A DNA stretch of 64,000 nucleotides, taken from NCBI GenBank assembly GCA_020853235.1, contig JADYZG010000026.1, positions 1 to 64,000 of the forward strand, given 5' to 3'. The stretch's first letter is position 1; the number at the start of each line of letters is the position of its first letter. Under the pieces are notes generated by a model. That model was not told the origin of the DNA. It made no database searches and was given only the letters and a program-made list of their open reading frames with translations. Shown here in pieces: positions 42,669-45,790 of the stretch. The stretch is from a bacterium (lineage in GTDB: Bacteria > Patescibacteriota > Dojkabacteria > GCA-002793355). Both the position numbers and the translations under genes were made by a program.

Positions 42669-43217
42669 CTACTCGTCTAAATTACTCTCTCCGTCGAAGA
42701 CGATATCTTCTGGTTTCTTTGCTCTTTGGAAAATGAGGATACCGTTGAGATGGTCAACTTCGTGTTGGATATATCGGGCATACATACCTTTTGCGATAAT
42801 TTCGAATTTCTCTCCGTCACTTGTGTAGGCAGATACTTTAATTTTCAGGTATCGTTCAACGAAAACGTGATAAAACGGAATACTCAAACAGCCTTCTCCC
42901 ATTTCCTCAGTTGCACCATCAATGACTTGAAGGACAGGGTTTATAAAGAAAAATGGTTTACTTGCAGGAATCTCAAAATTTTTTGGAAAAATAACGTCGT
43001 AATTCAAAGACTTTTTATCTAACTTAAGACAGAAAACTCTGAAATCTCTTCCAACTTGGGGGGCTGCAAGACCTGCTGCTCGAGTGTAGTGCGTCACAGT
43101 TTCTCCAAGGTTGTTGAGAAAGGTCTGAATTTTTGCGCTCTTAATATCTTTAACTGGAATTTCTTTAGTTTTTTTGTAAAGAATTGGGTTTCCAGCAAAC
43201 GTAATTGGTAAAACCAT
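42669..43217 (-). CDS. def: Peptide deformylase
   Basis: GLAAPQVG, EGCLSIP, QHEVDHLNGILI; TATAAT 5 nt upstream of ATG. Confidence 0.93.
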   Translation of the reverse strand: MVLPITFAGNPILYKKTKEIPVKDIKSAKIQTFLNNLGETVTHYTRAAGLAAPQVGRDFRVFCLKLDKKSLNYDVIFPKNFEIPASKPFFFINPVLQVIDGATEEMGEGCLSIPFYHVFVERYLKIKVSAYTSDGEKFEIIAKGMYARYIQHEVDHLNGILIFQRAKKPEDIVFDGESNLDE

Positions 43218-43235: not shown

Positions 43236-44939
43236 TTACATTTTTTCAACAACCTCAATTCCAATCAAGTTGAGTCCTGATTTTAGAATTTCTGCTGTTT
43301 TCTCTGCAAGAGTCCTTCTTGCACGTTGTAATTCTTTATTTTGCTCGGCATTAATTGGACACTGAGAATAGAATGTGTTGAAAAGTTGCGCGGTTTGATG
43401 CGTATATTCAGCGACAATATGCGGTGCAAGTTGTTCTGCAGCCTGCAAGACAATAGTTGGGAATCTCGACAACCATCGCATGAGGTTCATCTCTGCTTCC
43501 AAAACCAACTGAGAACCATCTTTGTTTGTTGCTTCTGGAATCTCAACTTGTTTAAGAATACTTTTTATCCTAGCATAGGTGTACTGAATGTACGGCCCTG
43601 ATTTTCCTTCGAAACTCACGGATTCTTCAAGATCGAATTTCATATCTTGGAAAATGTTTTGTTTTAGGAACGCAAATTTAATTGCTCCCATAGTAACGAT
43701 TTCAGCAGTTTTACTTTTTTCTACTTCGCTCATGTTTTCTCGGTCTTTCATAACCTCTCTAACCCGTTCTTTGACAGTACTGACAAGGTCGATTGCACTT
43801 AATATTTTTCCAGTTCTTGAGCTCATTTTCCCGGTTGAAAGAGAGACAAGCCCAAATCCTAGATGCTGGACTTTCCCGACTAGCTCTGGAAAACATAGTT
43901 CTAGAGCCTTGATGACAACGCTGAAATAACCATTCTGTTCGTTGGCTGTCGTGATTAGATTCAAGTCATATTTCCAATCTTCGTATTTTTGTATATTTAA
44001 ACCAATATCTTTTGCCTCGTAGGTGGGCGTGTCGTTTTTAGTAAGAAATACTCTGGTATGAAGTCCGTATTTCTCTCCAGGAAAAATAACAGCCCCCTCG
44101 TTCTCCTCAAAGACTTTCCCTATATTATTTTTTACAATTGACCTCCCTCTTTCCCAAGTTTCACTCTCAAAATAATGATAGGTTTGTTGGACACCAAGGC
44201 TCTGTTCAAAGGTTTGATAATAATCGATTGACCATTGTCGCGTTTCTTTCCAGATTGTCGTGATTTCTGGGTCATGTGTGTAGATTTTTTTGTTGATATC
44301 ATCGATAGTTTTTTTTGCGATTGGGTCTTCGTCGTATGCACTACTACCTTCTTGATAACATTTTTGTAAGAGCATTACTCTTTCCAGTGGATCAGTTGGC
44401 TTTGGTTGCCCTAGCTGAATATAACCATATAGTGCTTTTGCAACATGTGGTCCGACATCGCCTTGATAGTTTGCTTTTGCGACAGTGTGCCCAACAGCAC
44501 TAAGAAGACGTGCGAAACTTTCACCTGCGATATAGGAGAATATATGGCCGATATGGGGAAGTTTATGTGTATTTGGTTGCCCATATTCAACAAAAATTTT
44601 TTTATTATTTTTTACTGGCTCTAAAGAAATACCTTTGTGTTGCACAAAGTTCCACAGATTATCTTGTGAGATTGTAAAGTTTATGAATGCTCCAACGACG
44701 GATATTTTTGCAATCTTGGTTTTAATTTCGGTTGTCGCTTCTGAATCTAAGTATTTCGCGATTTCTTGTGCAACTTCTACAGGGTTCTTTTTAAGCACCT
44801 TTGCCATAACCATGGCAACGTTCGAGGCGTAATCACCGAATTTGCTATTTGAGGGGAAGTCTACGGTAAAATTTGTATCTTCAAGCGAATATAACGATTT
44901 GATTGCTTCTTTTATTACTTGGGTAATAATTTGCTTCAT
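43236..44939 (-). CDS. argS: Arginyl-tRNA synthetase
   Basis: EYGQPNTHKLPHIGHIFS, GLVSLSTGKMSSRTGKILSAIDL, GPYIQYTYARIKSIL. Confidence 0.93.
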   Translation of the reverse strand: MKQIITQVIKEAIKSLYSLEDTNFTVDFPSNSKFGDYASNVAMVMAKVLKKNPVEVAQEIAKYLDSEATTEIKTKIAKISVVGAFINFTISQDNLWNFVQHKGISLEPVKNNKKIFVEYGQPNTHKLPHIGHIFSYIAGESFARLLSAVGHTVAKANYQGDVGPHVAKALYGYIQLGQPKPTDPLERVMLLQKCYQEGSSAYDEDPIAKKTIDDINKKIYTHDPEITTIWKETRQWSIDYYQTFEQSLGVQQTYHYFESETWERGRSIVKNNIGKVFEENEGAVIFPGEKYGLHTRVFLTKNDTPTYEAKDIGLNIQKYEDWKYDLNLITTANEQNGYFSVVIKALELCFPELVGKVQHLGFGLVSLSTGKMSSRTGKILSAIDLVSTVKERVREVMKDRENMSEVEKSKTAEIVTMGAIKFAFLKQNIFQDMKFDLEESVSFEGKSGPYIQYTYARIKSILKQVEIPEATNKDGSQLVLEAEMNLMRWLSRFPTIVLQAAEQLAPHIVAEYTHQTAQLFNTFYSQCPINAEQNKELQRARRTLAEKTAEILKSGLNLIGIEVVEKM

Positions 44940-45120
44940 AGGTGAGTATACAATTATTTATACTAATTACCTATGGACGGGAATCCCGTGGTACCACCAT
45001 AGTTCCTTCGAAACGAAGGCCCTCTTGGATGTCTGTCTTGCAGTATCCCTCTGCGGAAGCTTTAAGCAAATGCTGTTTACCTCCTAGTCTCACGAGTGCG
45101 ATCTCGATCGGTGACAAGTA
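44937..45120 (-). promoter_or_regulatory. T-box-like tRNA-sensing leader of argS (apparently translational)
   Basis: Minus strand contains CTATGG-TGGTACC-ACGGGATTCCCGT-CCATAG: canonical T-box antiterminator with 7-nt UGGNACC bulge. Upstream stem III-like hairpin CCTTCG-TTT-CGAAGG; TATAAT at 45125-45130. Confidence 0.85.
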
Positions 45121-45241
45121 GGTAATTATATCACGAGATTTGGATCTATTGCATGTGCCCACTATTTTGCTAGTAGTATGTCACTGCGGATTATTGAGTT
45201 GGAAACAGAAAAAGTATTCCCAAAGATGGTAAAATACAGCA

Positions 45242-45790
45242 ATGAGTCAACTTTCTGTAAGAGAAGCAATACCAGAAGATGCCGCTCGTTTCTTAGAAAT
45301 CAATGGCGCAGCTTGGCTAGCAACTTATCCTGTTGAAAGAAATGATTTGGTTATTACACGAGAAGATATTTTGTCGAGATTAAACGAAAATCCGCGTGAA
45401 ATTCGTCTTGAAAATTGGAGAAAACGTCTAGAATCAATGGATGACACCTCAACTATTGCATTTGCGTGCGAATTAGACGGTTTAGTCGTCGGATACTGTG
45501 TTCTTACGAAAAGCGACGCCGAAAGAAGTATTAAGCAGATGTACGTCCTACCCGAGTATCACAACAAGGGAATCGGCTCAGCATTAATGATGAAAGCCCT
45601 AGAATGGTTAGAAGTGGCCACTCACGATGCAGCCGTCAATGTAGCATCGTATAATGAAAACGCAATTAAATTTTATGAAAAGGCTGGATTCGTAAAAGGC
45701 AGAGAGATTATTGATCCTATTGGAGAGCTTCCGAGCGGTGCAATAATCCCTGAAATTGAAATGATAAGAAAAGCAGGAGGAATAGTATGA
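45242..45790 (+). CDS. GNAT-family N-acetyltransferase
   Basis: VVGYCVLTKSDAERSIKQMYVLPEYHNKGIGSALMMKALEWL, NENAIKFYEKAGFVK. Confidence 0.88.
   Translation: MSQLSVREAIPEDAARFLEINGAAWLATYPVERNDLVITREDILSRLNENPREIRLENWRKRLESMDDTSTIAFACELDGLVVGYCVLTKSDAERSIKQMYVLPEYHNKGIGSALMMKALEWLEVATHDAAVNVASYNENAIKFYEKAGFVKGREIIDPIGELPSGAIIPEIEMIRKAGGIV

Follow-up and report, generated by a model that had tools for sequence, protein, structure and literature searches.

A T-box leader upstream of argS in a Patescibacteria genome, with a predicted sequestrator over the start codon

The argS gene and its leader

The window, the whole stretch of 64,000 nucleotides analysed here, encodes on its minus strand a 567-amino-acid arginyl-tRNA synthetase, ArgRS (argS, 43236–44939; NCBIfam TIGR00456 with 380.7 bits, cut-off 261.65, E = 1e-113). 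The gene lies directly behind a predicted T-box, which supports the original prediction that argS is the controlled gene. Downstream of argS on the same strand, a peptide deformylase-like gene (42669–43217) has a TATAAT of its own immediately 5′ of its start codon and may therefore be transcribed apart from the T-box.

The 180 bases upstream of argS on the minus strand carry all the elements named in the original prediction (a TATAAT, stem I, a pseudoknot, stem III, A1, a bulge and A2), each in the place assigned to it. Starting from the 5′ end, an extended −10 promoter, TGATATAAT (45125–45130, by direct reading), is present without a good −35, and a consensus scan returned no promoter on the minus strand. 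Stem I (45087–45115) is the ultrashort helix built on GTC..GAC that had been proposed, and its sequence reads as a K-turn hairpin, with GUC-ACC-GA-U-CGAG on the 5′ side, CUCG-U-GA-GAC on the 3′ side and a 6-nt apical loop, AUCGCA. Stem II (45055–45084) pairs GGAGG with CUUCC around an internal loop and an AGC-AUUU-GCU hairpin, and no S-turn consensus is evident in its sequence or fold; the stem II loop is AAGAAA / (A)GUAGAA in the ileS, tyrS and aspS T-boxes of the same genome, and three of its other T-boxes do show the S-turn sequence.

A scan of the leader places a stem IIA/B H-type pseudoknot at 45027–45054, in which GGAU in the loop of GCAG-AGGGAUA-CUGC (45040–45054) pairs with AUCC (45027–45030). 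The same scan finds comparable pseudoknots in the genome's own ileS, proS and aspS T-boxes and a weaker one in tyrS. Stem III follows as CCUUCG-UUU-CGAAGG (45005–45019), flanked by GAGGG (RRRNG, 45020–45024) and AA (45003–45004), so that the region 45003–45024 fits the RRRNG-Stem III-AA motif as given in PMC7778990. The antisequestrator (44971–45002), located by the alignments to Rfam and to a model of relatives' T-boxes, consists of helix A1, CUAUGG/CCAUAG (44997–45002 / 44971–44976), the bulge UGGUACC (44990–44996) and helix A2, ACGGG-AUU-CCCGU (44977–44989). Overlapping it, the free minimum free energy (MFE) structure contains a predicted sequestrator (44937–44975) with outer strands CAUAGGU and ACCUAUG, inner strands AGUAUA and UAUACU, loop aauaauug, and aauu and c between the two helices. 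Its 3′ strand includes the argS start codon, AUG (44937–44939). This output region was absent from the original description.

T-box identity and the tRNAs addressed

The Rfam T-box model RF00230, the check originally suggested, matches the leader at 44970–45120 on the minus strand and aligns over its full length (1–219 of 219) with 42.4 bits, at E = 3e-8 for the 371 bases searched with a lowered threshold and E = 1.6e-8 genome-wide. This score is under the family's curated cut-off of 93 bits, at which Rfam lists five tRNAs in the window and no T-box; the cut-off alone says little, since no more than 2 of the 14 control genomes reach it in the same search. A second model, of the discriminator region, was built from 49 T-boxes of relatives and included no sequence of the genome itself. 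With this model, the argS leader ranks first in the 64 kb window (E = 5.6e-5), and the next match has E = 2.8. Among the 49 relatives, A1 and A2 are paired in 91% of cells compared with 73% in shuffles, all 10 pairs show two-sided changes, and covariation scores 0.573 where shuffles average 0.238; when the partners are slid against each other, pairing falls to 56% at most.

The leader combines features of RF00230 (a 7-nt UGGN bulge between A1 and A2, a specifier, a discriminator base and the stem III flanks) with those of class II T-boxes (no terminator, a start region within a predicted OFF hairpin and a short K-turn stem I with an apical specifier). Helix A2 opens with an A-U pair. The Rfam consensus has G.U there, and structural work links that wobble to the rejection of charged tRNA (PMC7583486). 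At this pair (alignment columns 83 and 103), 42 of 49 Patescibacteria T-boxes have A-U or G-C, and 6 have G.U.

The genome has five T-boxes, located before argS (CGC), ileS (AUC), proS (CCU), tyrS (UAC) and a non-discriminating aspS (AAC). Four of the five, and many ileS T-boxes of relatives, have a stem I with a K-turn and an apical loop, in a common form: a C-stem, a 3-nt bulge, GA opposite GA or AA, an upper stem and a loop of 6–7 nt ending in A. The loops are CUAUCA in ileS, AAUUACA in tyrS, AUAACA in aspS and AUCGCA in argS, and the three bases ahead of the final A read AUC, UAC, AAC and CGC, respectively. The automatic reading of stem I fails where stem I is longer, and the proS specifier CCU was read by eye; CCC occupies the same place in two relatives (G001 and G002). 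In ileS, tyrS and argS of this genome the specifier encodes the amino acid handled by the synthetase that follows, and AUC recurs before many relatives' ileS genes.

By comparison with the ileS, tyrS and aspS loops, the argS specifier is CGC (Arg) at 45098–45100, followed by A45097. CGC can pair with the tRNA-Arg(GCG) anticodon, placing A45097 opposite U33, and the tRNA-Arg(GCG) of the genome has discriminator A73, which fits the UGGU bulge. Of the two specifiers originally put forward, CGC-A and CGU-G, the first therefore stands, with its fit to tRNA-Arg(GCG), and the second does not. In this genome UGGU goes with A73 of tRNA-Arg, tRNA-Tyr and tRNA-Pro, and UGGC with G73 of tRNA-Asn. Because both tRNA contacts match, including the U-to-C change, there is strong evidence that these elements are working T-boxes. 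tRNA-Ile(GAU) was not found in the genome assembly, which is incomplete.

The aspS gene scores as an aspartate--tRNA(Asn) ligase, and its T-box (L005, 1498–1687, minus strand) carries specifier AAC and bulge UGGC. An enzyme charging both tRNA-Asp and tRNA-Asn appears, from these motifs, to be tuned to tRNA-Asn; the bulge alone cannot separate the two, because tRNA-Asp also has G73. The element is conserved in G002 (L194), with the same AAC, UGGC and sequestrator.

Judged by its sequence, then, the argS leader is a genuine T-box RNA, and the original prediction is borne out by the full-length Rfam match, the model built from other genomes and the specifier match.

Predicted switching at the start codon

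The A1/A2 fold and the sequestrator are mutually exclusive, because both use the CCAUAG strand. The sequestrator hairpin forms in the free MFE fold of the leader, and when each fold is enforced, the occluded form reaches −28.5 kcal/mol and the antisequestrator form −23.9 kcal/mol. Since the occluded fold is lower, the default would be OFF, with bound tRNA needed to tip the fold. The sequestrator itself has −11.2 kcal/mol where shuffles average −4.9 (p = 0.011), which is modest evidence for argS alone. In all five of the genome's T-boxes, pairing is possible between the A1 3′ strand and the ribosome-binding or start region (shuffle p between 0.000 and 0.011 for each), as it is in ileS of G001, tyrS of G002 and valS of G040, the last with the AUG inside the stem.

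A further observation bears on what such a hairpin would hide. A Shine-Dalgarno (SD)-like site precedes only 1 of 52 long open reading frames (ORFs) in the window, where ORF starts, for this count and for the −10 counts below, are the first start codon in frame, uncurated. With almost no SD sites, occlusion of the AUG is a sensible target here. The 16S rRNA of the assembly consists of partial pieces at a contig end, without the 3′ tail.

We consider it likely, from the predicted folds, that the argS T-box is of the translational kind and occludes the AUG itself. In the mechanism we infer, the K-turn hairpin of stem I would display CGC in its loop for pairing with the anticodon of tRNA-Arg(GCG). 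When this tRNA is uncharged, its 3′ ACCA would pair with the UGGU bulge and hold the A1/A2 antisequestrator, freeing the argS start codon. With charged tRNA, or none, the A1 3′ strand would instead pair with the start-codon region, and synthesis of ArgRS would be turned off. What the data show directly are the sequence elements, the model matches, the group-level A1/A2 covariation and the fit of specifier and discriminator to the genome's own tRNAs; the two mutually exclusive folds are predictions, and tRNA binding, charge sensing and the effect on translation are inferred.

The main rival is that the T-box, though recognisable by sequence, is decayed or weak, with most argS expression coming from TATACT, 5 nt ahead of the AUG, as a leaderless promoter. 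The −10 hexamers of the window suggest that leaderless starts are common in the genome: strong ones cluster 2–12 nt before starts, at 17 sites for the 52 ORFs, or 1.55 per position compared with 0.24 farther upstream. Their distribution peaks at 5 nt, the very spacing of the argS TATACT. The divergence of the argS stem II would also fit decay, as would the absence of a T-box from the nearest argS genes read (G002 and G003). The parts that contact tRNA, however, are all intact, from the K-turn and a specifier fitting the genome's own tRNA to the bulge, A1, A2 and stem III; the TATACT has neither a −35 nor a TGn, the minus-strand scan found no promoter, and the hexamer also forms part of the sequestrator hairpin, as its inner stem. 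On balance we regard leaderless expression as improbable.

Somewhat less probable still is a transcriptional T-box, in which the competing hairpin terminates transcription rather than hiding the start codon. Most T-boxes of same-class relatives, including the argS T-box of G008, do carry a U-run terminator at the corresponding place, but a scan of 44700–45400 detected no terminator-like site, and the argS hairpin is followed by AAGCAAAUU, with no U-run. Termination there would fall within the gene, because the 3′ strand of the hairpin is in the start codon. Those T-boxes of the genus that were read likewise lack a terminator U-run after the competing hairpin, proS at L060, with a UUUUU stretch, being a possible exception. 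With no U-run and no scan match, the terminator reading was rejected for argS. That the leader is a chance set of hairpins resembling a T-box can be dismissed, its score not being above the curated cut-off but its genome-wide E value, the agreement of a second independent model, the specifier for the correct amino acid and the position directly 5′ of an aminoacyl-tRNA synthetase gene all speaking against chance.

T-boxes across Patescibacteria and comparison with known systems

The original prediction held that a T-box in a genome resembling the candidate phyla radiation (CPR) would be unusual. The CPR context of this ultra-small bacterium holds; distant named ArgRS relatives, 'Patescibacteria group bacterium' at 39% and Ca. 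Collierbacteria at 32%, place it as Patescibacteria. The element is not isolated: besides the five T-boxes of this genome, at least one RF00230 match with E of 0.001 or better is found in 63 of 97 relatives. Across the phylum, 54 of 240 genomes have a match at E of 1e-8 or better, 8 of them above the curated cut-off. The genes behind about 90 of these elements are mostly aminoacyl-tRNA synthetases. There are others: HAD-family phosphoserine phosphatase-like genes, identified by eye, lie behind T-boxes at L129 and L149, the former with UCC (Ser) in its stem I loop, and small proteins with no assigned role lie behind T-boxes with UGG (Trp) in the stem I loop at L132 and L135.

Within the genus, ileS and proS T-boxes recur in G001, and tyrS, proS and aspS T-boxes in G002, a single-contig genome; this recurrence speaks against contamination as their source. 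No T-box precedes argS in G002, of the same genus, or in G003, of the same family; no argS match was obtained in G001, and G008 has an argS T-box of transcriptional type. The argS copy described here is probably a recent gain, or has been lost elsewhere. In G008, argS (L079) makes up the C-terminal portion of a 928-codon open frame, the N-terminal part of which resembles, by eye, a B3/4-type domain protein.

Taken together, the data favour, with some reservation, a lineage-wide T-box network over aminoacyl-tRNA synthetases in Patescibacteria. In this genus it would act as an SD-independent translational switch that hides the start region, and the AUG itself in argS and in one relative's valS, in genomes whose starts are otherwise SD-less or leaderless.

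The T-box class is known mainly from Gram-positive bacteria, and its translational form has been described mainly from Actinobacteria. A literature search, incomplete in coverage, found no paper on T-boxes in Patescibacteria, CPR or Parcubacteria; database entries may well exist without one, since some Patescibacteria matches pass the Rfam cut-off. For its translational class, the T-box database looked in Actinobacteria and also at class I hits that were truncated (PMC7778990). The present elements bring the candidate phyla radiation into the range of T-boxes, the translational form included. Little is understood of gene regulation in Patescibacteria, whose genomes are small; a sensor of tRNA charge placed over several synthetases would give them a direct route of response to amino acid supply, and each specifier allows a direct test of the tRNA that its gene senses. 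Occlusion of the start codon in an SD-poor genome, if true, would be a separate, testable riboswitch route to translation control.

The closest likeness is to the short stem I translational T-boxes of ileS in the Actinobacteria Nocardia farcinica and Mycobacterium tuberculosis, described in PMC7583486. Shared with these are an apical specifier on a short K-turn stem I, stem II with the IIA/B pseudoknot, stem III, an antisequestrator, the absence of an elbow-binding module and, as predicted here, a sequestered start region as the output. The argS leader differs in its phylum, in its Arg/CGC specificity before argS, in a predicted sequestrator that reaches over the start codon itself and involves no SD, and in having no clear stem II S-turn. 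With the transcriptional T-boxes of RF00230, such as those of Bacillus tyrS and glyQS, it has in common the order of parts, the UGGN bulge, A1/A2, stem III and the control of an aminoacyl-tRNA synthetase; unlike them, it has no long stem I with an elbow-binding module and no terminator, and it scores under the family cut-off. Finally, the transcriptional T-boxes of Patescibacteria of the same class (before ileS, valS, lysS, proS, aspS, trpS and others) share the discriminator with A1/A2 covariation, and their ileS copies share the K-turn stem I with its apical loop. In the other families of the class most of these T-boxes have a U-run terminator, whereas those in the genus of the window mostly have sequestrators.
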